Assembly: GCA_950295325.1 (NCBI GenBank)
Contig: OX485805.1
Span: forward strand, 2,916,501-2,980,500
From: Polytrichum commune
Taxonomy: Eukaryota; Streptophyta; Polytrichopsida; Polytrichales; Polytrichaceae
Direction of reading: 5' to 3'
Length of the DNA: 64,000 nt
Both the position numbers and the translations under genes were made by a program. Shown piece after piece: positions 12,801-54,575 of this stretch. Each line of letters begins with the position of its first letter. Position 1 is the stretch's first letter. The notes under the pieces are model-generated. The model saw only the letters and a list, made by a program, of their open reading frames with translations. It was not told where the DNA came from and ran no database searches.

Positions 12801-13316
12801 TTTTTGATGGACAACCAATTCGAGTTACTCCTTGCATATGTAATGAAACTGCATGCCTTATTGAAGAAGCTCAACACGATATTTGTTACTGATTTAAAGT
12901 GGCAAAATCAATGCACTATGAATTCCTTCTTCGAGTCCACATAGATCTCATGAGAAAAATTCGCATATTTACAAACGGATTTGAAAAAATATATGATCTT
13001 GTATAAGTGGAAAAATACCTAATGTGTGATTTTCCACGAAGCACCTCATTTTCATGACAACGAAGTCCAATTTCTCATATTACTGAATATGTGATACCTC
13101 GATAATACCACAGTTCTCTCGTTTTCCGAAGTGTCATATTAAAGAGGAAGGACTGTAGGTTAATTGTGGATTCATCTCAAATGACCACGAGTAGATTGAT
13201 TGGGGTCTGTAAAGCAATGATCGGGGAGAACCGGCTGTTAGTTACAAATGAACCGGATGAGTTTGATAAATAATCGGTTGAAGTTGAGGATTGCAGGAAA
13301 TTTACCGATCATTTTA

Positions 13317-13704
13317 GGGCATCACCACCCATCCTACAAAATGCAGGGTGGAACATCCTCACAATAAGTTCAAGTCACTCGGTTTGCAACCCGGGTGACC
13401 CACCCATGACTTGTATATAAGGTGATAAAACAAGGAAGAAACAAAAGCAAGATGAATCTCATTGGCACCTTGGAAATCGGAGAGGAATATGGAGTTTGTC
13501 CTTTGTTGTTTAGGGGGCTCCTTTTTTGTTTTGGGGGCAGAGCTCCGACTTGCAAAATGACCCCAATTTGCAAGCCAACCTCAACTTCCAAGCCGGCCCT
13601 ACCAACAAATCATCCATTTTGCAAGATGGGTGGGGCACTTTTGTAAGCCGCCTCTCACAATATAAGTTGAGGTCATCCGTTTTTGAGGATGGGTGGTGAT
13701 GCTC
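13317..13704. mobile_element. PIF/Harbinger-type MITE
   Basis: A 388-bp element with inverted ends GGGCATCACCACCCATCCT and (reverse complemented) GAGCATCACCACCCATCCT, flanked by TTA on both sides (13314-13316 and 13705-13707). TTA duplication and a GGGC start are typical of Tourist/PIF-Harbinger MITEs. It has no transposase, and the small overlapping ORFs inside are not believable genes. It sits inside the hAT-type element. Confidence 0.85.
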
Positions 13705-14272
13705 TTATTAGAGGAATTCAGTGAATATACCCCAATTTAATAAAGGAAAACCGGAGGAGGTCAACTTGTAACCGGTTGGACTTGCAAACACGGAGGACGC
13801 TAAACACCCCCCCACGAACTTCTAGGGATTCCATATTCGGGCGGGGGCAGCCCTCCCACGAAATTTCTGGCCCCGCCCGGATTTTTTCCAAACCCGCCCG
13901 AAAATAGCTGCCCGCCCCGCCCGAAAACGAAAAAAACATTGCTCTTCCATTCTTGAAGGCCGCTTGACTACAAATCCCATATTGAGTGCACTTCACCTTC
14001 AAGGTCTCAAATCCAATACATATGTGCACTTCCACCTAGTAAATAAGGCATTAAATGGGATTTCATTCCGGAAGTGAAACCATCAACCAAGAATGTAATT
14101 AACTTGGAAGTCAAAAAATTAGAAAATCCTCATCAACATTGAGGTTATAATTTTTATGACTTACCATTTGAAATTGTCTTCGTCATTCTTAAATGACACT
14201 TAAATTTAATGTGCTGATGTGGTATGTATATTTTATAATATTTTAGATAATTCTAGCTACTTTCAAGAATAT

Positions 14273-16555
14273 TCAAGAATTCTGGGTGTATTTGTCGAAC
14301 CAATAAGCGCTCGACTTCTCCCAATTGATCTCCATTCCGGATGCTTTGCTAAATGTTTCAAGCAACCTCACAAGCTCGTCTACGTCCTCTTTGGTGCCTC
14401 TTACCATGAATGAGGAATCATCCGCATATTGGGATATGCTTTGTTGCTTCTTCCCCCCGGGTAGGTAAACTCCTTTGAGCCTACCCTCCGCTACCGCCTT
14501 TTTTATTACATGAGTAAGAATCTCACCCACTATTAGGAAAAGGTAGGGGGCTAGTGGGCACCCTTGTCTCACTCCCCTCTCAATTTTGAAGTTCCTCCCG
14601 GGGTTACCGTTAAGATTCACCGCCGCGGACGCTTAGGTAAAAAACAATTTTACCCACCTTATGAACACCTCGTCAATATTCATAGCCTTCATTGCACAAA
14701 AGAGAAAGTGCCAAGACACCTTGTCATATGCCTTAGAGAAGTCTAGTTTTAGAAAGATAGAGGGTTGCTTAGAAACTTTGGCCCAATGAAGGGTCTCTTG
14801 AGTAAGCACAATATTGTCTAATATAAACCTAAGGGGTAAAAACGCTGTTTGCTCCGGGCTAATGACATCCCTTAACATGGGTTGGAGTCTAATTTAAAGA
14901 GTCTTGGCAAGGATCTTATAAATCACCGTAAGGAGGGTGATTGGCCTCCAATAGTTGAGGTCTTTGGTGTCCCCCTCCTTATGTATTAAACTAATCAACC
15001 CCCTTGTTACCCCCTCATGTAGTTTTCCTTCATCCATGCTTTGCATAATCATCCGGTGGAAGTCCTTACCGATAGTTGGCCACATCTTTTGGTAGAACTC
15101 TACCGGGATGCCGTCATGTCCGGGCGCCTTTCCTTTAGCCATTGAATTTACCGCACCCCGTAGCTCCCTTTCCGTAATTTCCTTAACAAGCGCCTCGTTC
15201 ATGGCGGGGGAAAATGTAGCCGGTACCCCCTCCATTACTTTTAGAAGTGCCTCCTCCTCAATGTCCCTATGTCTATATAGGTCTTGATAAAAGTCTTGGC
15301 AAATTCTATCTAGGTCCTCTTTTTTGGTGAACATCCGTCCATGCTTATCCTTGAGTTCCGTAATTACCATATGTGTGTTTTTTTGACGTACGGATTTAAA
15401 AAACTCTTTGGAGCATCTATCACCTACTTGTTGCCATTTGACCCTAGACCTAATGGCAGCCCCTATAGCTTTCCTATTTTCTATGCTATCTATGGTATTC
15501 TTAAGTCTATTTACTTCCCCTTGTTTCTCAAAGCTATTGACATCCTCATGTAGGTTGACTATAGCTACTTCTAACTTGGCCTTTGTGTCTAGCTCTAATC
15601 TCCTATTCTCCTTTGCTTTTTGCTTGCACGCTTGTCTATAGAATCTAGAGATGTTTCTTAGTTTGTGAAAAAAGTTGGCATCCTCCGGTAAGCTCATCCA
15701 CCTATCCTCTAATTTCTCCCTTAGCTCCCCTTTAAGGTGTGCCGTATTCCACTTAAATGCCCCTTTCCGTTCTTCTCCACTACCAATATTTACCTCTAAA
15801 TGAACCGGAGCATGGTCCGATCCTACGGTATATCCATGGATAAAGTAGGAGGTAATACGAGTATTGAGTTGACTTTGGGATGGTGTGTAGAATCTATCTA
15901 ACCTAGCTAGTCTTCTTCTTGCTCCCTTTTGCCCGTTATCCCAAGTAAATCGCGGGCCCTCTTGATGGAGGAATTCATCTCTCACTTGTAGGGAATTTAG
16001 AAATTCCTTCCAAGAGTAAATCTCCAAGTCGCTAATGGTTCTCCCACATCCGTGTGACTTGTCCTCCGGTCTTTCGGTCATATTGAAGTCTCCCCCAATG
16101 ATCCACTCGCAGTCTTTGGGAAGCGCGTCTAGCAATATATGCCATAGATGTCTTCTTTCCGTAGGTATATTAGGTGCATATACACAAGCTAGCCCAATAT
16201 TCCCCCCCTCCACTCCTTCTAATTTGATCCACACTACCCTATTTTCATATAGGGCCCCGGTGGCCGTAACAAGTTTAGCGTACTTGTTAGCTAGTAAAAT
16301 GCCTACTCCGCCTTTCCCGGCGGCATTAGGATTAAGCCAACTCCTTTCCCCCGGGCTGGCTTCCAACACCCAACTAGCACATCCGGGGAAAAGCCTTGAT
16401 CCTATATTCTCCAAGGTTTTTCCTCTAAGTTTGTGCTCTTGGATCATTACCACGTCCACTTTTGGTACTATCGTACTAAGGAAACCTCTCTCTTTTGCAA
16501 TATTCTCCGGGTCATTTAGACCCCTAATATTGTGTGTAATTAGATTCCACTTCAT
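14273..16555 (-). pseudogene. LINE ORF2: endonuclease and reverse transcriptase, broken
   Basis: One minus-strand frame starting at ATG 16555. Residues 1 to about 240 are an APE-type endonuclease with HNIRGLND, QEHKL, GGDFNMTERPEDK and SDHAP motifs. It nicks target DNA to prime reverse transcription. From about residue 430 the reverse transcriptase begins (KGKAPGHDGIPVEFYQ, LISLIHKEGD, NYWRPITLL), then LDFSKAYDKVSW, RGVRQGCPLAPYLFLI and catalytic YADD. Stops at 14894-14896 and 14633-14635 interrupt the frame without changing phase, and the protein ends about 50 residues after YADD. The full plant L1 ORF2 is usually above 1,200 residues, so roughly the last 40 percent is missing. Not functional. 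Confidence 0.9.
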
Positions 16556-16600
16556 AGACCAAGATTTTGAAGAATACTGTGATCATCCTCCTTTCACCCT

Positions 16601-19171
16601 TTAGTGAGGATTGGTGTCCACCCCCCATAGTCTTCCTTGTCTTGGGGTGATAATGTGCTTCCCGAGGGCTATAAGACTAGATGCACTATTCCGGATAGGT
16701 GTATTAGTCAACAGTGCCTCTTGACCATGTCCTCTATTCTCCCCTTCTCTAGTCTCCGTGGATGTGTTGGGACTATCTAGGCCAATGCTTGCCATTATAT
16801 CTTTATACATGCTTCCCTTATGAGTGGTTTTGGGTATTGGTTGAGTCTCCCAAACTACATCTATTGGTCTATTATTATGTGTACCCTCATCATCCGGGTA
16901 TGAACTACCAATACGGTCTATGTCGTTGTTGGGGTAGGAGTCCGACCACTTACCAAGTCTCGGGGCCTTGTTGATGACCCGGTGGTTGGTTGGTTCAACC
17001 TCCCACGTTTGTTTTTCCCATATACTCGCCTCCGTGTAAGACGGTTTGCTGTGGGATTCTCCATTCCACCTCCCCTGCTTTTGTCCCTTAGAGTTTTCTA
17101 TTGGCCCCTTGCCTCTTATTTTCTCTGTTGTGCCGACTGGGTTGCCGTTGTCCGCTTCCCCAACCGGTGCAGCTCCCCCTAGGTTGCTATGTGGGCGGGT
17201 TCCCCGAGGTAGCCGTTGGCCTACTGGGTTTTGGGTGGGCGACCTCCCCTCTCGGGTTGCTGGTTCCGCCCCTGCCTCAGCCTCACCCTCTCTCTCGCTA
17301 CTTCCTCCCCTCCCAGTCTCCTCCCAGCCCCTCTCATTGCCTTCCCATAGTCTGGCCTCACCGCCGGTTCTCTGCCCTCGCTCGACCGCCTCCTCGCCTG
17401 TCTGCTCCCTCTCTGCTTGTGGCCGAACTCCCTCTGTGTGTGGTGGTTGCAGGTTTGGTGCCGCTTCTCCCACCTGCTCTTCATCGATCGCAGCCTCTAG
17501 CTACTCTTCAAGTGCCTGATCTAGGGTTGTTTCAGTCCCTGCCTCGCTCATCAACCTTTCTGTTCCCATTTCGACTTCGGTCTCTTCACTGCCGGATTCT
17601 TCCCCCTCTTCTTCCGAGCGATCTGCTTCTGTTGTTTCAAGTGGTCTTTTATTACCTGCGAATTTCCTTGGTGACCACATCATAGTTGATGCTGGATCAC
17701 CTCTGCCCCCTGGTGTATGCCTTTCTTGTTGTTCTTCTCTCCGATCCAGCATCAGCTCACCCTCCTCCATCTCGTAATTCACCGAATCTCCTGCCATGTG
17801 TGGATCCCTGTCCGGTTCTTTTCCTTCCGGCCTTGCCTCCCGAACTTTTCCTTTCTCTGTGGGATCTGTCTGGCCCTCCCGGCCTTTTTCTGCAGAGGCC
17901 TTTGCTGCTGCCCTCCGAGGAGATTCGGCCGGCTCTTCACTCCTTTGTCGCATCACTGTGTCGTCAACTTGCTCATATGGCCCTTCCTCACAGTCTTCCT
18001 GGCCGTATCCTCTTCTGCTCCCCTCACCTCTTTGTGGCTTGCTTCTACGCCTGGCTGCCCAAGCTTCCTCCGCTAATGCATAAGCACTGGATCTCGCTTC
18101 ATCATTGACCACATCGAAGATGTTCCTCCTTGTGTTTTTTCTGTTTTTAACTTGTTGAAAGCCGTCTTCATCCACAACTATGTTTTTCCCTTTTTCTTGT
18201 TGGAATGTGTATGGTGCATGCATTGCTTTCCTTCCACCCCGTCCATACCTTTTTTGGATCTCATTACACTCCCTAACCCTATGTTTCCAGCTTTGACAAG
18301 CTTTGCATCTCATCGGAAGCCTATCATAATCCACTAAAACTTTTTGGGGTGGGAGTGTTCCATCCTCCGATTCCAGATCTATACTTGTCACCCACCCCTT
18401 GGTGACCATGAGATTCACACAGAATCTAGGATCCTTGGCAGTTTCATTCATTGTGTCTATGCCTATGACCTCTCCTAATGTTGCCGCTATGGCAAGTGCT
18501 TGATCATGATGTTCAAAGGGGAGTTTCCTCAAGACAACCCATGTGGGAAATGCAAGGTTGCTAGGGTTGTCCGGATTGAATCCCGGTACCCAACTTTGAA
18601 TCATGCATGTTCCCCATTTCGATTTGTATGGTGATAACATCAAAGCATTGTTAAGTGCATCCGAATCTTGTCCTTTGAGGAAGAAAAACCCCTTACCCAC
18701 ATTCATACAGAAATCTAACTCACTTCCTCTCAGTTTTTGGTTTAGATCTTGCAGCCATCTTTCCAGATCTTGGGAGGGAGGTTTTGGACCTACAAACTTT
18801 GCAATTAAAAGTTGTTCTTTCAAAAGTGCAATGCGGGCTTTTACTTTCACCGAATCAACTTTAAAAGCAATGGCATCCTTTCTAACTAAGAAGCCACTAA
18901 AGTTTCTTTCCATGTTTGTTGGGAGAATCTCACCAACTTGTCCTTTGAAAGGGTTGAGTTGCCCTTCCCAGATCTGTTGACTTACTTTGGCAAGGGCTTC
19001 GATCACAACTTCCGTCATTTCTTCATCACGCTTCGGATCCTCCCCCGCTATCCACCCCCCTTTTTCTTCCAGGAGGGGGTCAAATCTCATCCCTCCACCA
19101 GATCGCACTTTATCCGCGAATGTCGCCATGTGTCGCCCCTCTCCCATTGTTTTTGGTTGTGTTATCTCCAC
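16601..19171 (-). pseudogene. LINE ORF1: nucleic-acid binding protein with one internal stop
   Basis: Starts at ATG 19171. An in-frame TAG at 17501-17503 splits it into 556 and about 290 residues, both in the same phase, so the original was about 856 residues. The first 250 residues resemble the DUF4283 region common in plant L1 ORF1. A CCHC zinc knuckle follows around residue 285 (CKACQSWKHRVREC). The rest is low-complexity and charged, rich in Glu, Arg and Gly. It would coat LINE RNA. ORF2 starts about 45 bases downstream of its end. Plus-strand ORFs over this region are shadows of its skewed composition. Confidence 0.8.
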
Positions 19172-19570
19172 CCTTCCTTGTGCAACTCTTGCATCCGTCC
19201 GATCGGGTATCTCAGTGCATCTGCAATCGCCTAGCTTCCGCCTGCCTCCGAAATCTTCTAGATCTAGGCCCTGTATACAGATCCAATCCGTCCTTGTCTC
19301 TACAAACTTCCAGTTAATCTCAAAACACTACGCTTCTGCTAAGCTAATCACTTTCCTAACACCCTTCATGGCACAGATCCCTATTTGCCCAGGGCTCCGC
19401 CTACGTTTCCTCATTGTGAGCCCCCTCAGACATTGGTTAACATATTAAGTGTGTACTTGCATCGTCTGCATGCAAATGTTTCCCGTGGGGGGGGGTGTTT
19501 AGCGTCCTCCTGCAAACACTAGGATCTCAACCGATTATGCCCAAAAATCTTCCCGATCACTGCTGTAAAG

Positions 19571-22500
19571 CTGAATTCCTATGTCGAATCGACTAAAAAA
19601 AAAGTAGCTTCCTGCAGGTCAACGCGTTCTATTTCAAGGCGTTGCTTCTGCAAGTTGACGCTCGGTTGCGAAGATTGCCTCTCGCACTCTCGCTCGTCTG
19701 CACAGTGGTAGGGGCTCAGCGCAAACAAGTGGGCGCCTAGCTGCCCTGGCAGTTCTTCGAGTGTGAAGCCATTAGTGCGTGTGGCAAGATGTGGAAGTTA
19801 GTGTAACTTAAGTGCAACATGCGACTCATTTGGGAGGGCTTCAATACCATCATGTTGTATGATCTAATCTGAGCTACTCTTTATTGAGCTTTGAAGGACG
19901 GGGGAGGGAGGAGTCTCCAGCACCTTGTGCTTGCTGGGAGATCCGTTTGGATCGGTCTTAGCGAAAATCCATCAGCAGCTGGATCGATCTTCAACATCAT
20001 CATCACCATGTGAGTAGTAATGATCAAGCCACCGGCTTCATCACCATCCTGTAAGTTTTTTTGGTGGGCCGACATCTTTTGAAGTAGTATTTACGTGTAT
20101 ATACATGCTAGCTAATGATTAGACTATTTAATCGATTGGTGGTGCTTCGGATTGGAACTGGCCATGGTACTTAGTCATCATGTCGACAAGTCTAGCTGAA
20201 TCTTATAGAGCTTTTACAAGAAACAAACTAACCTTTTGCAAATTAAGAGTTGGAAGCCGGAGGTGCTGATATTGCTTGTTCCACGAAATGGGTGGCATGA
20301 AGCTTAGTAAAGTTTTCCATGGGGGTTTTACTTTCTCAAAGGAGTGTGATTAGTTTACCGGCAATGGTCAGCATATTTTGGTGCAGTCACAGAATCTGTA
20401 GTGTGGGATCTCTGGAAGCATTATTTACATTCACCGATAGACAGGCTAGTTGCGTGATGCTTCATTTTGGAACAGTATGGCACTTTGTCACGTCGGAAAG
20501 TCTGGCTTCTTTTAACTCGCACTGATGCGTTTCGATTTTGATTGCGATCGAGCTAATGTCACCTTAATACGCACTGTAATGTTACAGAGTGGCCATTCTC
20601 TCAGCGGAAGCTTAGTATGTCCACTTTGTGACATTATAGTGCGGCTTAAACATAAATTCAATCAAAACGCACTAATCTTTTGGGCAAAGATTTGGAAGAG
20701 GTGCTTGTTTATTATTATTGGATCACAGAATGGAGTGAGCTGAATCTTAGCATCATGTGATGAGTAGTATGCGATGCATCTATTGACGTGTGGATCCACT
20801 AGTCTCGCGTCAAATTACATAAAATCATTGGTTGGAACTGGTTCAGTGGCAAGTCCTGACTGGGTTTCAGAGGAGTGGGATTGGTTGATTAGTTGAGGGG
20901 AATTAATGGATCACAGAATTATATGTACTTTTTCGGAATGGCATACATACATAGATTAGCTTGAACACGCACGCACCAGTAGTGTCGTGAAAATAATTAA
21001 GCTAACTATTCTTCTATAGAAGAATCTGATTCGCCAGTCTGAAGAGTGCTTACTGATTGCACAAGTATGTAAGAAAGCATTGAGCCGGTGTGCAATAATG
21101 CGAACCTGCAAGTTTTGGGACCTTGTACGAACGGGGAGATCAGACCGCTAGTTTGAGAAATGACCCGGTTGAGTTGGAGAAATAGCGGGTTCAAATTCTT
21201 CAAGTCTTTAGGGAAAGTTGCGATCACTTTAGAGGAATGTGTAGAATATAATTCAATCTAAAAAAATGAAACTAAAAGACATTAACATGTAAGCAGTTGG
21301 ACTTGGAAACACTTGATCTCGACAGATTTTGCCGAAAATCTCCGTGGATACAGTCTAGGACACGGCTTGTATATATACGAAGAGTAGTAATTGACTAGGT
21401 ATTAACACTTCATAACCTCATATGTCTCCGCCCATTGCTGGTTCTTGAGTAGGTCGTCGGCGGTCTTGTTTTTAAGGTCCCAGCAGGGTGCTGTTAAACT
21501 GCATCTGATGCATTATAAGGTTATTGCATCTGAACATTGTTAGTGATGGCTCACACGTGAGTAGAAGAGGTTGAAATCATCAGCAATGAGCTTTGAAATT
21601 TGGGTCTTCTAATTCCCATCTTCTCATGTTCTACTTGAGTCACTGATGTCTCTAGAAGCAGAACTAGCCTTGGACTCTGGAGACTGCCTCAGATCTTCTG
21701 AACATTAAAACACGACAAAGTTAAGTTGGTATGAACCCTACACGAGGATTTTGGACTTTTCACCTGACATTATAGAATTGTTCGTGAGATTATTATTGTT
21801 CGTGAGATTTCAATTTGTATCACAGCTGACCTGTTCATATACATATATATATGTATACATAATTTTACATTATAGATCCATACATGAGGGGGTGGAACTG
21901 CCAATTTTCGGGAGTTTGATACTTGGAGTTGACAAGTAGCTTTCATCCAAAGCATACCAAACAATCTTCAAGCTCTCAATAGTGAGCAAGTGTAAATGGA
22001 GGTATCGCGAGGGAATGATACCAAACGATTGAGCATTCATGACGAGCGAAATAATGCTTGAAAGCCCATTGGCTTGGGACCCGCAAAACAGTAGCTTGAG
22101 TATGGAGGTAGCTTAGGATTTTGACAGAGAGTTTCCTTGTAAAAAATGACTGAGCTTGGCATCGTCATTCCACACGGGATGCATCAAGCCGCCATGTAAG
22201 CATACTTAGCATGCTAAGTTCAAGCTATCAGAATGAGAGCTCATTAATAAAGTCAAATTGAGTGCAGGCGTTAGAAGCTCCCCGCCGCAAATGACAAGGA
22301 TCCTTTGTTAGAGCTCTCAACTCGAGCTCTAGAGTAAAGGGGCCTTATTAGTCAAGTCGTGTCAATTTTACCGCATGTTTCCCCAGGTAAGTTCCCTGCG
22401 ATTTGAATATGACCACAGATTGTTGCAGAGCCTACGTTATAGCTCATGTGGAATACACATAATAGGTTCCATAGGTTACAGTTTCATTTGTGTAACCATA

Positions 22501-23370: not shown

Positions 23371-26300
23371 ATGGCTAGACGCACACAAGATGCTCGGACT
23401 TTGTACTTGGTGTTTGGAATGATGAGCAGTTTGTGGAGTCTCAACACTATGCCAATCAACGGGGCTACAAATCCACCAGGTACTACTCAATGGTTGCACT
23501 AAGTTTCTAAGTTTGTATATTTATGTAGCGAGGGGGTTGTAAAAGTTTACGTCAATCAGGACTATAGTTACAGGCTTCTACCCAATGTAATCTCACCTCT
23601 CACTGCGCAATGATATCCTTTGATTGTCATCTTTGAATGAATAAAAATTTGATATTTAAGTTTTTTCCTTGCTAGTCATATTTGACTGACGAACAAGTAT
23701 ATTTTCTCCTATGAGTGGCAGGGTTCGTCTACATCGATTGTGGTGCATCAGCTGCATATGCTGACCAAGTGACCGGCTTACAGTGGGTCCCAGATGATGG
23801 CTTTATTACGACTGGTGTGAACGTTGGCAATGTACCTGTCGCCTCGGCTCATTTGGAATTTCCTGAGCTTACAACCCTTCGATACTTTAATGAATCTTAT
23901 CCCAAAGATTGTTACAGCCTACCGGTGACACCCAAGGCCAAGTATTTGGTGAGAGCAAGTTTTTATTATGGAAACTATGATGGTGCTTCAACGCCTCCTA
24001 CTTTCCAGATGGCAATTGATGCAACAATTGTGGTCAATATAACCACTTCAACAAGTACCTTTGTGTATGAAGAGTTTGCAATAACATCTCAAAGTAACGT
24101 GACCTATCTTTGCCTTCTAAGAGATTGGTCCAATACAGTGCCTTTCATCTCTGCTATAGCCTTACGACCTTTTATATCATATGATTATGGTATGGGTAAT
24201 GTCCTTGCTTCACCTCGATATCTATTTCTTATTGCGAGGTTGAATCTTGGCGGAGTTGGTCCCATGATAAGGCATTATTCCTCAACTTTGTTGATTTGGC
24301 CATCAAAAGCTACATGTTTTATGTATTTCGGTGCATTAAAGAGGCGACTTTGATTAAAAAATGTCAATGACAAGAACACACATGTCAAACTTGAAACTAA
24401 ATCAATACATTTTGTAATTAGTAACTTAATCATCATGTTTATTGATCTCTTTTGATCTATTCATAATTTGGCGGTTAATAATTTCTCCAAACAAGCGAAT
24501 CTATGTGAAAAAGACTTGATAAATTTTGGCTTGATATTTTCTTTGAAATCTTGAGAATTGAATTATTTAGAAACCAATCAATGGGAAATTTTGATGTTAG
24601 TATAATTATGTAGTTTTAAAATTTTTGAATGTTTTTCAGATCGTTTGCAAAAAAATTTAATTTGGTTGCAAGTTTTTGTAGTTCTCTTAAAAGGTTGTTG
24701 TTGATGCAGATACCCTGATGACAAGTTTGATAGATATTGGTACCCAGAGAATGTGGATAGTCCATATGTTTCTACAACAACAACATTAACCAATTTATCC
24801 ACATCTATTGTGGTGAATACGTTGGGAACGAATGAATCTATCCCATCCGTTGTTATGCAAACTTGTTTGACCGTGACTAGCCTTGGAAACATAACAATCT
24901 TAAGCAATCTCATTCCCCAAAATGTTCGAGCATATGTGGCATTCCATTGGGCTGAACTGAATCCAAAAGTAAATGCATCCTCAAGACAATTTTGGATACA
25001 AATACCTGGTTTTGTGGATACATTTGAAAATCCCTTTGTAAGTAGCGGGGGACTATATATGTTTCAAGATTGGATCTTTTGGGGTGTACCTTTAACTACA
25101 TCAACAACATCAACTCCTGAATTTGTATTATATCCAACCCCACTATCTATATTTGGGCCATCATTGAATGCGTTGGAAATATATGGAGAAACAAACATTA
25201 TATCTTTGACATCCTCTGAACTTGATGGTAAATATTCTACTCCACCCAAACTAATTTGATGTAGGTGTTAGAATTATGTAATTAGTCTTGGAATCGTCTG
25301 AAATAACCATTGTTGATATTGTAGCTTTGGCTATTGAGGCTGTCAAATCAAGTATGAACCTAGGAAATTGGAGTGGTGATCCATGTCTTCCATCTCCTCA
25401 TCCATGGCTCACTTGTGACAACATGATTTCACCTCCGTACATTCTTGCAATGTAAGTATTTCTTCTAGCTTCCATCAAATCCTAGATATAATCAAAATGC
25501 TTAGTTTATTTTCCAACATTGATTTAATCAATATAATTTGATTTGATGAATAAATGGCTTAGCTTATAAAAAACTTTTATGTTTTTGGTGTATGATTTGT
25601 TTATTCACGTGTATATGTATGTGTGCATGTGATTAAATGATCATTAGTTTATTCATGTGCATACTTGGACTTGATTCTAGTTGTAAACCAATGATATCAA
25701 GTGCCCCTCAACTGTTTTATGTTTCCATAATACTAATAGTTGTCAAATATCATGTAGGAACATTGTGCTACATGATATTGGGAAGAGAACCTTAATCTTG
25801 AAATTTCAACATAGAAAGGTGGTCAATATATATGTTGTGATTCTCATTGCAGAAATCTATCCGGATATCAGTTGAATTCAACCATTTCCCCAAGCTTTGC
25901 CCAACTTGAGAACCTCACAAGCCTGTAAGGAATTTGACCATGTATTAATATTATGTTGTTATTTTTTTTGGTGTGATTGAAGTGATGAACTATGAGGTTT
26001 TTTTTTTGTTATAACCTTGTCATGAAAATTGGGAGTGAATTGGTTTTTTTTGTTTTGATGAATAAAAAAGACATAATCTAGTTATAGGTTGCTAAGGATA
26101 CATTTGGGATACATTTTTTATTTTATTTATGAAATTTAAAGATTATGTACAAGCTACTCATAATAAGAGGATGAAATATTAAATTAGCATTTAGGTCATT
26201 CTTAACATTTTGGTTGAAAACCGACAAAATGAGTGCGTGATGTCATCCTCCGAATCCCCTCAATCTTGTGATTTCTTCCCATAACTTTGTAGTTGTATGT

Positions 26301-29300
26301 CATATGTGGCTTCTATTGGTTTTTGTTTTTTACCATGCATTTGTGACCATATAAATTTGTGTTTAAATTTTTATTTTATTTTTTGTTATCACGTAATGCA
26401 TGCATCATTTTTGAAAGTGTGGAATTCCCTAAGTACCATTTTATTAGCGTAGATTAGCATTTCAAACATGAAATAAGATTATAGAAAATATGTTCAAAAG
26501 GTTGTTATATCTTTTTTTCCAACATATATCTAACACAATTTAGTTCCAATGTGAATGAAATTTTTGATGATTTTCAAGTATATTGATGATCGTATTACAT
26601 CCATAAATTGTGTGCAGGGACCTATCTCATTGTGGATTGTTTGGATCATTGCCGAATCTCAGTGCATTGAAAAAGTTACAAAAGTTGTAAGTGCAAAAGA
26701 ATATTCAAAGTTGAAAATGTGGATCAATTCCAAATATCAAAACACTTGGCATTTGGCATTGGCATTTTTGAATGATTAATTGGCATATTAATTGATATGA
26801 AAACATGCTATAAAGTAATTGAACTTTATATGTATTTGAAGTAGTATGTTGTATGAAATATGGTCATGATTGTCTCAAGACTTATAATAATAACCAAATC
26901 TATTAGCTCAAAACTTAAATTATAGTTTGTGGATGACTACATTCTACTTCCAGATTTTTAGACTTTTGGAGAATCCTCAAGTTGATGTAATGACTTGAAA
27001 TTGCTTGACGATTATGATGTTTGATTATTCTAAGATATGATTTGGTATCAACTCATCAATTCTATTTGTCTTTATATGACAAGCATTTACAAAACAATAT
27101 GTTTACAGGAATCCTCCCTGAGTGGTTGGCATCATTGTCAATGCTTACGGAATTGTAAGTTTAAATGATTTTCATTTTCTTAAGTCTACATAATCATTTT
27201 CTTAAGACATGATTTGCAAAGCCTGATTTCTAGATTTGTATACTTATAGCTCACCTAACACATTTTTAAAATCCAAATTGTGAGTGTATTATTCATAATG
27301 TGTTCGTTCCAACTTTTTGGCAATCCAGGTTTGTGGAAAACAACAACTTTTCCGGAAAAATTCCTGACAAATTATCAAACACTAGTGGTTTGGACTTCAG
27401 GTGCTTCTTAACCTTTATTACGACTTGTAAATATATTGTAACCACCAATTTAAAGGTAACAGCAAATTTGACTTACAAGGTATACAAATAGTAAATGTGC
27501 ATTTATGTTATCATCCGAAATTTGATTTACATGCAATATTTGAATACTTGAATACATGTGTTGCAAGTCCCATTGTAATAGTCATTTGTTCAAAGTAATA
27601 ATTCATTTTTTTAATGATTATTAAAGGTACATGCCTGGAAATCCTCTACTTGGCAATGCATGGAATTCCTCTACTTCAACATCATCTCGAAAGCTTGGAG
27701 TGATCATTGGTGTTGTGGTTGGGGGTATCGCAGCATTAACAATCATATTCTTTTTTATTACATATTTTGTTTGCATTCATCATCGAACCAATGGAAACAT
27801 ACATCTTCCACATATGGGTGATGTTCCAATGCCAACTTTGCCGAAGAGCAAAGCTCTTGGCACCGGAGGTAAAAAAGACGACTCAAGTTTGCAATAGGAA
27901 AATCAAGTAAAATCACAAAAATGTTTTGAGTGATTATTGTGGTAATTATCTTAATTGTGATTTGTTATTCGTTGAAAAAATAAATAAAAAAATTGAAGTG
28001 TGCCATTGTCTCTATAACATATAGTTATGAGAGTATTCAAGATGTTTATAGTCAATTTAAGAATTTGGGCCATTTGATTGCACGACCTTAATGAATTTGT
28101 GAGATGGTGTTCTCATGATTCATTAAATTCAATTTTGTAGGAGCAAAACCTTATTCATTACCTGAGATTGTTGTTGCAACTCAAAACTTTGAGAAGGAGA
28201 TTGGAAGAGGTGGATTTGGCCCTGTATATTACGGAAAACTTCATGATGGACAAGAAGTGGCCGTCAAAGTACTTGATGTTGCCTCTCGGCAAGGGTCAAC
28301 GGACTTCTTTAACGAGGTTGACTTTCGGTTCAAATTATTTTTAAGTGATATGAATGACCATAAAAATCCAACACATTTACATATGTCATCAAATAATAAT
28401 AATAATAATAGAAAAATCCTATATAGTGATAGTATGGTCCTAATATTTTAAATTATTTAGGATTCAAATCATTTTATAACCAAAACATGTATGCATGTAC
28501 ATACTTTGGTCTAGTAACTTCATATCTTTGGTGAATATTCTATATAGTGTATTGAATAGTGCTTTTAGGTATGACGACATTATCTGCAAATTTATATGTA
28601 ATGATTCAATTGCTAAACACTTTGTATATGGGATTGGTATGTTTGTTTTGTAGGTTGATGTATTATCAAGGGTCCATCATAAGCATCTTGTATCATTGGT
28701 GGGATATTGCATAGACGAAGACAAACAAATATTGATCTATGAATATATAAGCGAAGGTTCTTTGTTTGACCATTTGCATGGTGCGTATCTCTCATGTTCA
28801 AAGTTGTGGCGTAAAATATTGATGATAATAGATTTTGATTTAATATTATAAGTATGTAAAGTTCATGTAATAGGGTCTAAGATGACCTTGAACTACCAAA
28901 TGATAGTGAAGAGGTATCTAAAACCAAATGGAGTGGTTGGGGGTTCGATTCGCAACCGTGAACTCTTCTCTCTACTTGACCAAAAAACTAGCTAGTAGGC
29001 CATGCGATTCTTATCTCCAAAACATCCAAATAAAAAGTTTATGTAAGATGTATTACGGTTTCATAGTCTTAGTGTAATGTTGATAGTATGCAATGTTGGT
29101 GTCTTCAACTTGTAATCACTAATATGTACATGTTTGTTGAATTGTCCAAAGGAGCCTTAGCATCAACATCTACCCCCCTTGATTGGAAATCACGACTCAC
29201 TATTGCCATGAATGCAGCACAAGGTAAACCAAGTGCATTTGTTGCATATTTCCATATTATGAAAAAAAAATCTTAAATTGCATAGTGATAAATTTGATGA

Positions 29301-30520: not shown

Positions 30521-32409
30521 ACATTTTTAATCATGTTTTGCCTTGACTTACTCATGTTATGAAAGGATCACCATTGTCTATCTTTTAAATTCACCTTTGA
30601 GTTAATGATCACTTTTAGGCTTTAGGATTTCTATATCATTACTATGACCATAGAGTTTGTATTTTGTGGTTTTTAGTTTGTCATAGATATTCAATGTCCA
30701 AACTAGACATACAACATGCATGAACGATTTAGAATCATTTTTTACATATGTTAACAATATTGTTATGCTCCTTTCACTAGAATCACAAGTCTCTAGGTCA
30801 TGTTCACTTTGCATACCGTACCCTACATTGTGATTCAATTTGACATAATTATATCTATAATACTTTTGAGATTAGAATTAACCTTTAATTCAATTGGACT
30901 CTTGGTTAGGAGTTAGTTGATTTGCATACATTACTTTCCATGTTCAGTAAGTTTTTGATTCATGGTTGGTGTTGTAGAGGATTGAATGTAGTGTTGTGCC
31001 AATTATGGAGAGAATAAGTTTATAGTGTATCTTGTTGGAGACAGCCCAAGAGATGAAACCAGAGGCCTCTCAACTCAATAAAGAAGGTTTAATTCCCCTC
31101 CATAAGTGCCATGTGTCATTCCTCGATGGGTTGAGCCAACTTGAATCCCACATGGATAGTACATCCCATGTGAAATAGAGCTTTCTCTACAGGTAAATGT
31201 TTTCTAAGTGAACACGGTTGGGAACTCAGAGGGCACAGGGATTGGGAACAAGTGGATAGGGGCGGGCCCTTCATTTGCTTCTGGCTACAGATGTCCCCAT
31301 GGCCATGGCTATGGTGATGATGGCTTGTGGCGTAGTCCCTTTCGTCCCCAGCATCCTTGCAATCTCCGTGAAAGATCACTTTTGGATTGCAACACAGAGG
31401 CGTACCATTGGATTGGCACTTCCACTCGAACTTGTGGGACGCAATTTGATGCTGTGTGCAGGTTTCTGCTGACCTCCGAGTGCAGGCATGGCTATGGCGA
31501 CAACAGCAGCATCGCGATGCGCTATAACAATACCGGTGAGAAAATATAATCCTTCCACTCTCCTTTCTTCTGGAGAAACTCTATCACAGATTCTGAACAG
31601 AATTTGAGCTGAGCTCCAGTCGGTTCCAGGATTCCAGAGTATTTTGCAGGGTTTAAGCATTGTCAGTTTGGAGAGCTTCAGAAGAGTTTGATGACTTTGA
31701 ATGTAGAATCTCTCTCTCTCGGTGGTGGTGGTGGTAGTCGAGTTTTGAAGACTTGTAGTTTGTTGGCGCAATGTGAGTGTCGGGAAACTAAATTCTGCAG
31801 GGTTGAGAGTTAGGTTTATGGTTCTGAATTTGCAATTTGACGTGAGGTGATGTTTAAGATTCTCGATTCGAAAGGTTTGTTGAGAATGAGACCACCTTAC
31901 TGCTCTGAGTGCAATGTACAAGTATGCCCTTGCCCCTGGCAGGCATTGATGGCTAGCCAGCGTTGCAATTTTATTCAGCACGAATTTGGTCATGTATCGT
32001 GCTTGAACTTTTGATACCGTCTTTTGGCTATCTTCTCTTAATTGCCTGCTGCCAAGTCACTGGTTCAAGATATGGCAATTTCTTTGATTCAAGATATGGC
32101 AATGTACAATACCTCCTGGGTAGGGACCCTTTCCAAGGACACGGGTCTCAGGAGATGTGGGAGAAATGAACATCTTAGATCAGTGAAAGGAGAAGCATCT
32201 CTTGGTAGCAGCTATGTTGTCCTGATTTGGAGACATTTGGATGTGAACAGATGTTGTGCAGCATCCCCAAATTTAGAGACCTGGAGGCGTGAAGCAGCAT
32301 GGGTTATGGTTCCATCTTGTACAAATGGCAATGAAGGAAAATAATGAAGGGCTGAAATTGTCAAGGCCTTACGTAGGCGGCCATTCGACATGGGATACAG
32401 TCAAGACTC
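30521..32409. other. Downstream region of copy A, no sure gene
   Basis: Conserved with copy B. It includes 3' UTR sequence and a more GC-rich block (about 31,200-32,340). Small ORFs there, including a minus-strand frame at 31,376-31,993, are not kept intact in copy B. A minus-strand frame of 100 codons is open in copy B (53,039-53,341) but shifted here by one missing base. I cannot assign a function. Confidence 0.4.
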
Positions 32410-37675: not shown

Positions 37676-37932
37676 GTCCTGGCAAGAGCTCCTCAATTCC
37701 AACCGACAAGTCATCACACCAACAGACTGCCAAACCGGGAAGGGTCCCGCATCAAAGTACCAGTGCCACGTGGATTAAATCAAATCTCAAAAACCCTAAG
37801 TCACTCTCGATTTAGTTTGCCACCTGGTTTCACATGTGTAAATTAGCTGCCAGAGCCTCACATCGCCAGGGAAGTCAAAAGAATAACTTGAATGCGTCAT
37901 GCTGACTTGTGATGGCCAGGAATATTAGACTT

Positions 37933-38752
37933 AATATTGTATTTAGTGTTATATGGTATTGGAATGTTATGGTGGTATTTGTTTTTAGTGACACTGCTCA
38001 TGAATAAGTTTACAGGTATTCTCATCCGAACATACTTTCAGCTCATCCAAATGGCAATTAGTGAAACAAAGTTTGGTATCTTTTGCATCCCAACACATTT
38101 GTAATGAAATATTGTCATGTTTGATGAAAGTTGGATGAAAAAACACTTCATAATTTGTGACAGTTATTGTAATATTGTAAGTCTATTATACCCTCTTTTT
38201 TTTTACATGGAATGAAAAATAACGTTAGATTTATATTAAGTGTTGGTAAGACTACACGAGTGGTTGACAATAAGCTTAGTATTGAGCAAGACAAATTGAA
38301 TTGGTGACACTAAATACAGTATTTGGTGTAGATTCCCAACACTCTTTGAGATGGGGCCCCACGAATATTTACCAAGGGTAGGGGGTCTACACCAAATATT
38401 GTATTTAGTCTCACCAATTTTGTTTGTCTTGTTCAATATTAATCTTAAGCCTTCCCCACAGTCTCACCAACAATCAATGTACACCTAACATTATTTGTCA
38501 TTTCTTGGACAATTTCTTGGGCAATATAGGTTTACAATGTTGTAGTTATTGTCACTTACTAATTGGTTTTTCATCCAAATTAGAATCATTCATGATAGTA
38601 TTTCATTGCACAAATGTTAGGATGCAGAACATACCAACAGTGGATGAGCTAAACGTGAATTGAATGACAATATTTGTAACCTTATTCATACGAAGCGTCA
38701 TTAAAAAAGTTACCACAATGACATAAACTACCATATGACATTAAATATAATG
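37933..38752. repeat. Foldback palindrome, copy B
   Basis: Counterpart of the palindrome at 10,471-11,295, with the same arms and centre (near 38,360). The partial right-arm copy also follows (about 39,110-39,420). Confidence 0.75.
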
Positions 38753-38889
38753 TTAGTATATTAAACACTTGACCTCCGTAGGGTTGTGGTAAATTCATCT
38801 CTGAATTTTGGGATTGAAACATCAAAAATAGACATTCCTATGCTATAGTATATTTGCTTGCGTTTTTGCCTCAATAATGGCCGCATACA

Positions 38890-39098
38890 TGGATTTTCAA
38901 ATGTCTAGGGACATTTTTGGGCATAATTAGTTGAGATCCTAGTGTTTCCAAGTCCGACCAGATACATGTTGACATCTTTTGGTTCTACTTTATTAGTTTG
39001 AGGTAATTTCTCTAAAGACCTCTAAAATGGCTAGTAATTTCTTGAAGTCTTGAACTTCAACCGGTTATTTCTCAAACTCGGATCAACCGGTTCAATTG
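38890..39098 (-). mobile_element. hAT-type short element relative, copy B
   Basis: Counterpart of 11,438-11,650, with the same core words, so it was present before the duplication. Confidence 0.45.
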
Positions 39099-39899
39099 TA
39101 AATATGATATTTAGTGTCACCAATTCTAATTGTCTTGCTCAATACTAATTGTAAACCGCAGTACAGTGTCACCAACACTAAATGTCAACCCAACATGATT
39201 TGTCATTCCTTGTAAATTTGTGGGGGGATTATGGATTTACAATGTTGCAATTACTGTCACTTACCAAGTGATTTTTCCATTCAATTTCCAATCATCCATG
39301 AAAGTAAATTTCATCACAAGTTGCTGACAAGAGAACGTAGAGCTTTGGCCAATGGATGAACTCATCCATCATCCATGACGATATTTGTTCGCTTGTTCAT
39401 AACCATATTATGAATAGTTCTAAAATATCATATTTTAGTGGTCATAAATGCTTCGATGGGGTCCCACATATGTTTAAGTACATAGTTAATATGAAATTTG
39501 TTAACTTTCACATGTGAAATGTGGATAATATAAGAAATTTTGATATAGAATGATGATAAATCATGGGAATTAAGGGTCCTAGGTTCTCAATCTCAAAGCC
39601 TAATCCATAGATTCATTAGCTTTTGTCTCCTTCACAACAATTTCTCACAAAAACCCTAAACCAAGGTGCATGATTTGTTTTCAATTAAGTTTACACCTCC
39701 TAATTACATGTGTATGGTGCAATCACTTGACCAAGGTATAATTGTTGCTTTCAAATTGTGAAACAAATCCAAGTTAGTAGATTGGGTTCTATCATAATTT
39801 GATTCAAATCATCAACATTATTTGAAAAATGTTGTACCCAATATTAAACAAGCAGTTTTTTAGAGCTATAAGGTTTGGATGATTATGGATCCTTTGATT

Positions 39900-40260
39900 A
39901 TCCAAAAATGTTGGAGAAAACACTATTCTTGCTACCTGATTGGAGTGCAAACTTTGCTAATGAGGAATAGCTAGAAAAATCAAAACTGACCAAGGAGTTT
40001 AAAAATTTGGCACTCCCCTTATCAAAACTAAATCTTGAACAAGATGAGATGCCATTTAAAATTTATTTAATAGAGGAAGGTGAAGTCATTATCGAAGCTG
40101 AATATTGCATGTCAAAGCTAGTTCATATGGCCTCGGGACAAAGAATAGTGCCACCTAGTTTTGACCTTAATGCATAGCCCTTAGACTCTTTAGATGTCGA
40201 TGAGAGACCTCCACATGTTGTGAAAGTGGCAAATGCTCAACATCATGCTTAACATTTTTG
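39900..40260 (+). pseudogene. Degenerate coding-like stretch, copy B
   Basis: Counterpart of 12,440-12,800. The frame through VPPSFDLNA, a stop, then SLDVDERPPHVVKVANAQHH is clearer here, yet still contains stops. Unrecognised family. Confidence 0.3.
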
Positions 40261-40661
40261 ATGGACAACCCATTCGAGTTTACTCCTTGCACATGTAATG
40301 AAACTGCATGCCTTATCGAAGAAGCTCAACACGATATTTGTTACTAATTTAAAGTGGCAACATCAACGGACTATGGATTCCTTCTCCGAGTTCACATAGA
40401 TCTCATGAGAAAAATTCGCATATTTACAAACGGATTTGGAAAAACATATGATTTTATATAAGTGGAAAAATATCTAATGTGTGATTTTCCACAAAGCACC
40501 TCATTTTCATGACAAAGAAGTCCAATTTGTCATATTCTTGAATATGTGATACCTCGATAATACCACATTTCTCGCGTTCTCAAAACGTGTCATATTAAAG
40601 AGGAAGGACTGTAGGTTTGTTGTGGATTCATCTCAAATGACCACGAGTGGACTGATTGGGT

Positions 40662-40677
40662 CTGTAACAGTGTAAAC
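40662..40677. other. Candidate hAT excision footprint
   Basis: The site equivalent to the hAT insertion in copy A reads CTGTAA CAGTG TAAAC instead of one clean CTGTAAAG. It looks like two imperfect target copies around five bases identical to the hAT terminus (CAGTG). Confidence 0.5.
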
Positions 40678-43600
40678 CTGAATTCCTGTGTCGAATCGAC
40701 TAAGAAAAAAATAGAAGTCGCTTCCTGCAGGTCAACGCGTTCTATTTCAAGGCGTTGCTTCTGCAAGGTGACGCTCGGTTGCGAAGATTGCCTCTCGCAC
40801 TCTCGCTCGTCTGCACAGTGGTAGGGGCTCAGCGCAAACAAGTGGGCGCCTAGCTGGCCTGGCAGTTCTTCGAGTGTGAAGCCATTAGTACGTGTGGCAA
40901 GATGTAGAAGTTAGTGTAACTTAAGTGCAACATGCGACTCATTTGGGAGGGCTTCAATACCATCATGTTGTATGATCTAATCTAAGCTACTCCTTATTGA
41001 GCTTTGAAGGACGTGGGAGGGAGGAGTCTCCAGCACCTTGTGCTTGCTGGGAGATCCGTTTGGATCGGTCTTAGCGAAAATCCATCAGCAGCTGGATCGA
41101 TCTTCAACATCACCATCACCATGTGAGTAGTAATGATCAAGCCACCGGCTTCATCGCCATCCTGCAAGTTTTTATGGTGGGCCGACATCTTCTGAAGTAG
41201 TATGTATGTGTATATACATGCTTGCTAATGATAAGACTAATTAATCGATTGGTGGTGCTTCGGATTGGAACCGGCCATGGTACTTTGTCATCATGTCGAC
41301 AAGTCTAGCGGAATCTTATAGAGCTTTTACATACAAGAAACAAACTAACCTTTTGCAAATTAAGAGTTGGAAGCCTGAGGTGTTGATATTGCTCGTTCCA
41401 CGAAATGGGTGGCATGAAGCTTAGTCAAGTTTTCCATGGGGGGTTTTACTTTCTCAAAGGAGCATGATTAGTTTACCGGCAATGGTCAGCATTTTGGTGC
41501 AGTCACAGAATCTGTAGTGTGGGATCCCTCGAAGCATTATTCATATTCACTGATAGACAGCCTAGTTGCGTGATGCTTCATTTTGGAACTGTGGCACTTT
41601 GTCACGTCGGCAAGTCTGGCTTCTGTTAACTCGCACTGATTCGTTTCGATTTTGATTGCGATCGAGCGAATGTCACCTTAATGCGCACTGTAATGTGACA
41701 TTATAGTGCGGCTTAAACATAAATTCAATCAAAACGCACTAATCTTTTGGATAAAGATTTGGAAGAGGTGCTTGTTTATTGATATTGGATCACAGAATGG
41801 AGTGAGCTGAATCTTAGCATCATGTGATGAGTAGTATGCGATGCATATATTGACGTGTGGATCCACTAGTCTCGCGTCAGATTACATAAAATTATCGATT
41901 GGAACTGGTGTAGTGGCTAGTCCTGATTGGGTTTCAGAGGAGTGGGATTGGTTGATTAGTTGAGGGGAATTAATGGATCACAGAATTATATATACTTTTT
42001 TGGAATAGCATACATACATAGATTAGCTTGAACACGCACGCACCAGTAGTGTCGTGAAATTAATTAAGCTGACTATTCTTCTACAGAAAAATTTGATGCG
42101 CCAGTCTGAAGAGTCTTACTGATTGCACAAGTATGTAAGAAAGCATTGAGCCGGTGTGCAATAATGCGAACCTGCTAGTTCTGGGACCTTGTTCGAACGG
42201 GGAGATCAGACCGCTAGTTTGAGAAATGACCCGGTTGAGTTTGAGAAATAGCGGGTTCAAATTCTTCAAGTCTTTAGGGAAAGTTGCGATCACTTTAGAG
42301 GAATGTGTAGAATATACTTCAATCTAAAAAGATGAAATCAAAAGACATTAACATGTAAGCAGTTGGACTTGGAAACACTTGATCTCAACAGACTTTGCCT
42401 AAAATCTCCGTGGATACAGTCTAGGACACGGCTTGTATATATAGAAAGAGTAGTAATTGACTAGGTATTAACACTTCATAACCTCATATGTCTCCGCCCA
42501 TAGCTGGTTCTTGAGTAGATCGTCGGCGGTCGTGTTTTTTTAGGTCCTTGCAGGGTGCTGTTAAACTGCATCTGATGCATTATAAGGTTATTGCATCTGA
42601 ACGTTGTTAGTGATGCCTAACACGTGAGTAGAAGAGGTTGAAATCATCAGCAATGAGCTTTGAAATTTGGATCTTCTAATTCCCATCTTCTCATGTTGTT
42701 CTACTTGAGTCACTGATGTCTATAGAAGCAGAACTAGCCTTGGACTCTAATGACTGCCTCAGATCTTCTGAACATTAAAACACGACAAAGTTAAGTTGGT
42801 ATGAACCCTACACGAGGATTTTGGACTTTTCACCTGACATTATAGAATTGTTCGTGAGATTATTATTGTTCGTGAGATTTCAATTTGTATCACAGCTGAC
42901 CTGTTCATATACACATATATATATATATGTATACATAATTTTACACTATAGATCCATATATGAGGGGGTGGAACTGCCAATTTTCGGGAGTTTGATACTT
43001 GGAGTTGACAAGTAGCTTTCATCCAAAGCATACCAAACAATCTTCAAGCTCTCAATAGAGTGAGCAAGTGTAAATGGAGGTATCGCGAGGGAATGATACC
43101 AAACGATTGAGCATTCATGACGAGCGAAATAATGCTTGAAAGCCGATTGGCTTGGGACCCGCAAAACAGTAGCTTGAGTATGGAGGTAGCTTAGGATTTT
43201 GACAGAGAGTTTCCTTGTAAAAAATGACTGAGCTTGGCATCGTCATTCCACACGGGATGCATCAAGCCGCCATGTAAGCATACTTAGCATGCTAAGTTCA
43301 AGCTCTCAGAATGAGAGCTCATTAATAAAGTCAAATTGAGTGCACGCGTTAGAAGCTCCCGGCCGCAAATGACAAGGATCCTTTGTTAGAGCTCTCAACT
43401 CGAGCTCTAGAGTAAAGGGGCCTTATTAGTCAAGTCGTGTCAATTTTACCGCATGTTTCCCCAGGTGATAAGTACCCAAAGTTCCCTGCGATTTGAATAT
43501 GACCACAGATTGTTGCAGAGCCTATATTATAGCTCATGTGAAATACACAGAATAGCTTCCATAGGTTACAGTTTCATTTGTGTAACCATACATCCTTTGA

Positions 43601-44449
43601 CCTATGTAGCTACTTGGAGCGACACTTTAGTTTCTTCTTAGATGCTGATATTTCTGGTGAGGATTTGTGGCAACGTCGTAATTAGTTGATAGCAGCTAGG
43701 CTCTTCTGTGAGTCTCAGATTTCCATTCTCGTGTCGAACTGTAGTAGTTTAGTTCATTGAATCTGAGGACTGGAAGTTGCATTCAGTCACAGTACTTCAT
43801 CCGTGTGTCTGTATCTGGTGGGGCTTACAACACAAGGGAATTGAACTTCAACACCTGTGCTCAATATCTAGGTTGAATGTAGATAGTACTACTGGTGAAA
43901 GGGGTACATCTCCCCCCATCCTAGATATGGTGACAGAGGTGATGAGCATTACAGCCGCTGTGCTAATGTTGCTGGATAACAACTTGAGGGCACATAAGTT
44001 AGATCAAAGCGCGTGTATTGCGACAATTATGCATTGGTCTTCTACATCTTCAATCTGATTGAAAATTTTTCATACAACTTAGCTAGCTACAGCCCACAGT
44101 CCTTCAATAGGGTGTGGCTTATGCAAATTGACTTGCTTGGAAAACTGTAACTGTCTACAATATGTATTCATCGAACTTCATATCCATGAAGTTCACAGCT
44201 TACTGTGTACATAAATTGTACTGAGGCACTGCCTGCATGCAATCTCAAAGAGTACTAGGCTGCCCAATTTGAAATAGCCTTAGCTTCAAACAAAATCAAT
44301 CTGAATCAGTACATTGACTCATGAAAGTTGCATGATGAGGTGGATCTGCCGCAGTTTATGGCAGCTCCGATCGGACTGGAACTAGTTCAGGAGCTGAAAT
44401 GCAACATTGGCATGCGTTACAGCGAAGTAATTTTTACCTGAATGCAAAT
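40678..44449 (+). promoter_or_regulatory. Upstream region of receptor kinase copy B
   Basis: Counterpart of 19,571-23,370 including the hAT-related repeat (about 42,180-42,415) and a longer alternating AT tract (42,910-42,935). No believable gene. Small frames here (for example minus 40,994-41,188) are conserved only because the duplication is recent. Confidence 0.4.
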
Positions 44450-54183: not shown

Positions 54184-54575
54184 CACTGAAATCTATAGAA
54201 TTTGTTATGCATCGAGATCTGTATGATGTGTTATGTGCTAGATCCCAAATTACAAATGTATTATACACGGGATCAATATTTACAAATGTGTTATGCACCA
54301 AATCTAGATCTACAAGTGTATTATGCATCAAATCTATATCTACAAATATGTTATGCACCATTTTCAAAATCAACATATGTGTTGTGCACGAGATCCAAAT
54401 CTACAAATGTGTTGTGCACCAATTCTAAATCTATAAATGTATTGTGCACCAAATCTAGATTTACAAATGTGTTATGCACATAATCTAGATCTAAAAATAT
54501 ATTGTACACCAATTCTAGATCTACAAATGTGTTGTGCACCAATTCCAAATCTATAAATGTGTTATGCAACAAAAT
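54184..54575. repeat. 30-bp minisatellite
   Basis: About 13 imperfect units of 30 bp of the type ACAAATGTGTTATGCACCAA followed by ATCTAGATCT; one unit near 54,370 has 31 bp. Since 30 is a multiple of three, several frames on both strands stay open. The minus strand would give a ten-residue repeat, VHNTFVDLDL. The 31-bp unit shifts the frame, and no start context or partner exon is evident, so I regard it as non-coding. Confidence 0.8.

Follow-up and report, generated by a model that had tools for sequence, protein, structure and literature searches.

A 64-kb window of the Polytrichum commune genome (the whole stretch of DNA analysed, C3:2916501-2980500) contains a nest of transposable elements in one of two tandem duplicates, here called copies A and B. 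In copy A, a hAT-like miniature inverted-repeat transposable element (MITE) holds a PIF/Harbinger-like MITE and a Mutator-like element (MULE), and a large part of the MULE has been replaced by a segment of a long interspersed nuclear element (LINE) and a short filler. Copy B is free of the nest, but carries a site longer than that of two outgroup paralogs. We consider it likely that the hAT-like MITE inserted before the duplication and was later excised from copy B, that it was retained and nested in copy A, and that LINE sequence and filler repaired the MULE. Genome searches were made in the 408-Mb assembly of this one genome (64 contigs, seven of them 42-78 Mb), and repeat families were represented by the best 40 matches for each.

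Nested DNA transposons in copy A

The features of the nest, in window coordinates, are as follows.
13207-13214, unstranded: left 8-bp target site duplication (TSD) CTGTAAAG of the hAT-like MITE, exact match to the right TSD
13215-19562, plus strand: hAT-like MITE, ends CAATGATCGGGG / CCCGATCACTG, 6.35 kb with inserts (unoccupied copies mostly 226 bp)
13314-13316, unstranded: left TTA TSD of the PIF/Harbinger-like MITE, matching the right TTA
13317-13704, plus strand: PIF/Harbinger-like MITE, 388 bp, ends GGGCATCACCACCC / GGGTGGTGATGCTC (family comparison)
13705-13707, unstranded: right TTA TSD of the PIF/Harbinger-like MITE, matching the left TTA
13783-13791, unstranded: left 9-bp TSD TGCAAACAC of the MULE, exact match to the right TSD
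13792-14275, plus strand: left terminal inverted repeat (TIR) of the MULE, 484 of ~496 bp, differing at 3/484 positions from a consensus built on 12 other terminal repeats
14280-19418, minus strand: LINE segment, L1-like, 5' end apparently natural, cut just past the YADD box (domains and family copies)
19427-19465, minus strand: 39-bp filler, identical to C3:14445413-14445451 (genome search, one other match found)
19484-19510, minus strand: right TIR remnant of the MULE, ~27 bp, length judged by eye (family comparison)
19511-19519, unstranded: right 9-bp TSD TGCAAACAC of the MULE, exact match to the left TSD
19563-19570, unstranded: right 8-bp TSD CTGTAAAG of the hAT-like MITE, exact match to the left TSD

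The outer element belongs to a large family, with 2043 first-look candidates in the genome, of which 40 were scored. Nineteen of 25 fetched copies align end to end, from position 1-3 to position 220-223 of 223 joined positions, and are mostly 226 bp long; one more (L074) ends at position 197, and the other five align over the first 100 positions only. Among the 20 copies aligned over at least 180 positions, the 8-bp TSD is exact in 11 and has at most one mismatch in 15, while one copy has two mismatches, two have three and two have four or more. A control with cross-paired flanks gave 0/380 pairs with at most one mismatch. On the plus strand of the window CTGTAAAG occurs only at the two TSD sites, with one further occurrence on the minus strand. 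The ends carry CA...TG inverted repeats (CAATGATCGG / CCGATCACTG), which together with the 8-bp TSD would make this a non-autonomous MITE of the hAT superfamily; the terminal motif of rice hAT elements has been tabulated as 'CA' (PMC4423477). The nesting of the other two DNA transposons within this MITE is borne out by unoccupied family members elsewhere in the genome. The target of the PIF-like element, TTTTAGAGG, is intact in 12/20 of these, and TGCAAACAC, the later MULE target, is found once in 12/20 and not at all in 8/20.

The PIF-like family gave 70 first-look candidates, and 39 scored copies besides that in the window are 95-98% identical. In 20 fetched copies the 3-bp flanks were identical in 15 and different in three, and in two the end was not recognised; the 15 pairs of equal flanks were TTA or TAA in 13 cases, TGA in one and TCA in one. 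This 3-bp TWA duplication is as expected of PIF/Harbinger (Tourist-like) elements, to which the MITE would belong. Its terminus reads GGGCAT in the window and mostly GAGCAT in the family, compared with the GG(G/C)CC given for rice Harbinger (PMC4423477). An additional TTA (13708-13710) directly follows the right TSD and is possibly the trace of an earlier PIF excision; TTATTAGAGG was found in 0/20 unoccupied hAT copies.

The MULE spans 13792-19510, and its TSD TGCAAACAC occurs on either strand of the window only at the two flanking sites. Immediately inside them the termini form a perfect 22-bp inverted repeat. A canonical family member is ~1.28 kb long with TIRs of ~496 bp, but in the window only the left TIR is long. 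Judged by eye, all five copies fetched with both ends (L003, L005-L008) have an exact 9-bp TSD, a feature that together with the long TIRs would identify a Mutator-like family. Only one end lies in the fetched stretch of L002 and L004, and no transposase was recognised in these single-TIR copies among four open reading frames (ORFs) of at least 110 aa, which were judged without a family search. The terminal sequence here is GGAGGACGC, compared with the GAG given for rice Mutator (PMC4423477).

The target duplications CTGTAAAG, TGCAAACAC and TTA are thus where the original prediction, made from the letters of this stretch, had placed them, and its assignment of the three families by their terminal features holds. 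In each family the flanks are also duplicated in other copies, exactly so in 11/20 for hAT, 5/5 for the MULE and 15/20 for PIF.

The LINE segment within the MULE

From left to right, the MULE consists of the 484-bp TIR, the antisense LINE segment, 8 bp, the 39-bp filler, 18 bp and the ~27-bp right TIR, so that 5.1 kb of LINE stands in place of the MULE centre and nearly the entire right TIR. The segment contains predicted Exo_endo_phos (endonuclease) and RVT_1 (reverse transcriptase) domains, the combination by which it would be classed as L1-like, as well as an ORF1 with DUF4283 and a zinc knuckle recognised by eye. The nearest LINE copy, L016/L027, runs ~2.2 kb further, to GGCCTTCTGT, and the window LINE is without that 3' part. 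Another copy, L079, ends in GGCCTTCTGT and a poly(A) tail; L027 extends to that word too but has no poly(A) after it. At the other side, the similarity of L016 to L078 ends 4 bp before the point at which the window and L016 diverge. Because these two copies stop matching near the 5' limit of the window LINE, its 5' end looks natural.

It had been proposed that the LINE was a fourth nested layer and that every target duplication in the nest was readable. The latter is true of the three DNA-transposon layers. Around the LINE segment, however, no target duplication, poly(A) or 3' end was seen, and an ordinary fourth-layer insertion was therefore rejected. A TSD was also sought around the fuller copy L016/L027 and none was found, the longest shared word being 7. 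In a genome search allowing up to three mismatches, the left MULE/LINE junction was found in the window only, and the region of the right end (19300-19510) was found in full nowhere else, although in either search a missing match is not proof of absence. An amplified family of LINE-bearing MULEs was rejected on these two single matches. The layout of the junctions shows that a 3'-truncated LINE segment has replaced, and not interrupted, the centre of the MULE and the greater part of its right repeat. In this case the LINE layer looks more like the patching of a break than ordinary nested retrotransposition.

Under such a scheme a break in the MULE, or a gap repair that was interrupted, would have removed its centre and reduced its right TIR to ~27 bp, and the gap would then have been filled with a LINE copy that kept its 5' end and lost its 3' end, plus a 39-bp templated filler. 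A tentative and more specific form of this idea is that a LINE transcript or its complementary DNA, internally primed and kept up to the natural 5' end, closed the break in this palindromic element, as a plant counterpart of endonuclease-independent LINE patching within a DNA transposon. If that were true, the locus would record two outcomes of the repair of transposon breaks, the other being the scar of hAT excision in copy B. The sole other copy of the filler that was found (L017 1014-1052) is on the same contig at a distance of 11.5 Mb, ~180 bp from a diverged member of the hAT MITE family (L017 1235-1435).

Two other origins of the composite have to be weighed. A full-length LINE may have retrotransposed into the right TIR of the MULE, before a later deletion took away the 3' end of the LINE together with the centre of the MULE and all of its right TIR but the ~27-bp remnant. 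The natural-looking 5' end, with the L016/L078 similarity ending within 4 bp of the window limit, agrees with such an insertion, and LINE 5' junctions are known to carry extra nucleotides. We nevertheless regard this course as rather doubtful, since it requires a second, independent deletion and neither a target duplication nor poly(A) was seen. It is also unlikely that the MULE already contained the captured LINE segment when it transposed into the hAT-like MITE, as in a Pack-MULE, in which a captured segment lies between two TIRs and moves with them. The segment does lie between TIR parts, and a perfect 9-bp TSD surrounds the composite with matching outer termini; but a right TIR of ~27 bp would have had to serve the transposase, which would presumably need more, and neither the left junction nor the complete right end was found a second time. 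Repair of a broken MULE by LINE sequence and filler is the reading that we prefer for this layer.

The site in copy B and the order of events

The features relevant to the comparison of the two duplicates are as follows.
10205-32373, plus strand: duplicated unit, copy A, with the nest and other inserts included (A/B comparison)
37676-53350, plus strand: duplicated unit, copy B (A/B comparison)
40662-40677, unstranded: copy B site CTGTAACAGTGTAAAC, putative hAT excision footprint, the first TSD minus 2 bp plus the CA.G.TG palindrome of the second (paralog comparison and hairpin model)

The tandem duplicates A and B differ by a Kimura two-parameter (K2P) distance of 5.0% over 13513 aligned sites of 10205-30550, excluding the block 30555-32373 (92% identical); by block, the distance is 6.5% left of the nest site and 4.5% and 4.8% in two blocks to its right. 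The flank regions form a tandem array of four, two in the window and the others near C3:2876k and C3:2981k. Across the nest site copy B reads TCTGTAACAGTGTAAACCTGAATTCC, of which the 16-mer is 40662-40677. Both outgroup paralogs have a single 8-mer at this position, CTATAAAG in paralog C (near C3:2981179, L024) and CTGTAAAG in paralog D (near C3:2876119, L025), and copy B is 8 bp longer than either. All 37/37 two-against-two sites in the right flank group A and B against C and D. Given this grouping and the one 8-mer of C and D, the ancestral site most simply had one 8-mer, to which copy B would have added 8 bp.

The form of the longer site is close to that left by hAT excision. Published Ac/Ds excision products have short deletions as well as palindromes, and the centre of these palindromes is the complement of the element's neighbouring base, in line with the hairpin model (PMC5873905). 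For CTGTAAAG this model yields CTGTAA + CAGTGTAAAG, that is, the left duplication minus two bases and the right one as CA.G.TG, with G the complement of the bordering C. The sequence CTGTAACAGTGTAAAG is such a product, obtained either by removing 2 bp from the first TSD with three P-nucleotides or by removing 3 bp with four; the 16-mer does not arise from a blunt hairpin if the complement rule is dropped. Of the 458752 distinct 16-mers that result when 8 nt are inserted into the TSD, only 14 are products of the model. Copy B therefore most likely carries a hAT excision footprint, which implies that the MITE was present before the A/B duplication and then left B. The original prediction had described copy B as the same locus without the nest, from which the order of events could be read directly; on that view the hAT insertion would come after the duplication. 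The nest is indeed missing there, but what remains resembles a scar rather than a pristine site, and the order of the two events is changed.

Relative ages were obtained by comparing the divergence of each element from its family consensus with half the raw A/B divergence (2.4%, or 2.5% as K2P), using a binomial P. The consensuses came from the copies closest to the window sequence, so that the dates are relative only. They included 20/25 fetched hAT copies (the five aligned over the first 100 positions only were dropped, one of which, L063, had too short a fetched stretch), 20 of the 39 other scored PIF copies, and 12 MULE terminal repeats from seven of the other scored loci. The hAT-like MITE has 14/223 differences from its consensus (K2P 6.6%), which suggests that it is older than the duplication (P 0.0012 over all blocks, 0.0004-0.010 by block). 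The PIF-like MITE has 6/389 differences (1.6%). The left terminal repeat of the MULE, with 3/484 differences (0.6%), is probably younger than the duplication (P 0.0026 over all blocks, 0.0002-0.0066 by block). These divergences and P values point to hAT insertion, duplication, then in copy A the MULE and probably the PIF-like MITE, and last the LINE fill; copy B would have lost its MITE after the duplication, most simply in un-nested form.

A pristine copy B, with the MITE inserted in A only and after the duplication, would account for the missing nest but is improbable and was rejected: the site in B exceeds that of the outgroup paralogs by 8 bp and matches a hAT footprint but for one base, and the hAT copy in A is more diverged than half the A/B distance, at the P values given by block. 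That the 8 bp are an unrelated small insertion or slippage is very hard to credit: the 13.5 kb of aligned A/B blocks do contain 49 indels, one of them of 8 bp and located elsewhere, but the difference in B falls exactly in the TSD, slippage would yield CTGTAAAGCTGTAAAG, which is not seen in B, and a match to a hairpin product would be rare by chance.

In the history that we favour, the ancestor of A and B would have received a 226-bp hAT-like MITE, with an 8-bp TSD, ~4 kb upstream of a gene with a malectin domain, and the unit carrying it would then have been duplicated. In copy B, hAT transposase would have excised the MITE by way of flank hairpins, whose opening and end joining would account for CTGTAA+CAGTGTAAA(G, now C). 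Copy A would have kept its MITE, which would later have gained the PIF-like MITE (TTA) and the young MULE (TGCAAACAC), the latter being subsequently broken and filled.

Several points weigh against this history. The hairpin model does not yield the 16-mer actually present in copy B unless one extra substitution, of the last G to C, is added; we take the C to be a later substitution. The P values for the PIF-like MITE (0.17 over all blocks, 0.04-0.26 by block) do not place its insertion before or after the duplication. Consensuses built from the most window-like copies allow only rough ages, and part of the hAT divergence may reflect subfamily differences that predate the insertion. As for the LINE, the 5' end of its family is defined by two other copies, one of which (L078) is only ~82% similar, and no close donor was found, the best being 91-96% identical over the compared parts, which does not fit a very recent LINE copy unless the donor was lost. 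Finally, the sequence is compatible with a fill that preceded as well as with one that followed the insertion of the MULE into the hAT-like MITE; the short right repeat and the single-copy state suggest that it came after.

Malectin-like-domain genes adjoin both flank regions in the window (23715-25259 and 44794-45405). Between the aligned A/B blocks, 26043-26398 (356 bp) is particular to copy A and 51266-51544 (279 bp) to copy B. Pieces of the right flank (window 19563-20600) recur elsewhere at 94-96% identity with differing end points (L015, L026; contigs C1, C27, C3, C4 and C5) and resemble captured or transduplicated fragments. A tandem array with periods of 30/60/90 bp is located at 54247-54575.

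Relation to known systems

Every component of the nest is of a known kind, and the locus is of value mainly as a case whose history can be read in detail. A paralogous site that seems empty may be deceptive: in this case two outgroup paralogs turn the 'empty' copy into a probable excision scar, a reading in which the insertion precedes the duplication and not the other way round. The MULE with its LINE filling may be a plant example of a break repaired by LINE sequence. A literature search on hAT MITE footprints in segmental duplicates had, among the titles listed, none on such a case, and searches on interrupted gap repair with filler, on LINE-filled breaks in plants and on Pack-MULEs with LINE fragments (for the last, the best 8 of 89 titles) gave no result.

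Endonuclease-independent L1 insertions are typically 3'-truncated, lack a TSD and poly(A), and are accompanied by a deletion of the target. The window LINE is similar in lacking its 3' end, a TSD and a tail and in the loss of target sequence, but would be a plant LINE of L1-like type, apparently complete at its 5' end. Single-copy TIR elements that carry captured segments are known from animals, where gap filling independent of transposition has been given as their origin (PMC8277862). The MULE is comparable to these Pack-TIRs in its single copy and in the foreign segment between parts of a TIR element; however, the animal gaps have a median of 4.6% of the element with donors mostly within 15 kb (PMC8277862), whereas here ~60% of the element is replaced by the LINE and the filler match is 11.5 Mb away.

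For DNA transposons in rice, repair after excision often brings fillers or deletions, and that study reads one TSD in an empty allele as insertion and two TSDs, deletions or filler as excision, with the same target sizes as found here (hAT 8, Mutator 9, Harbinger 3) (PMC4423477). That work contrasts two species, whereas our comparison is between tandem paralogs of one genome. The closest parallel for copy B is provided by Ac/Ds-type footprints in Candida, compared with those of yeast and Arabidopsis (PMC5873905), which likewise have a short deletion on one side and, on the other, a palindrome about the complement of the element's neighbouring base (CA.G.TG in copy B). In contrast to these, the site in P. 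commune would be the old footprint of a MITE in a tandem duplicate, recognised only through its outgroup paralogs.

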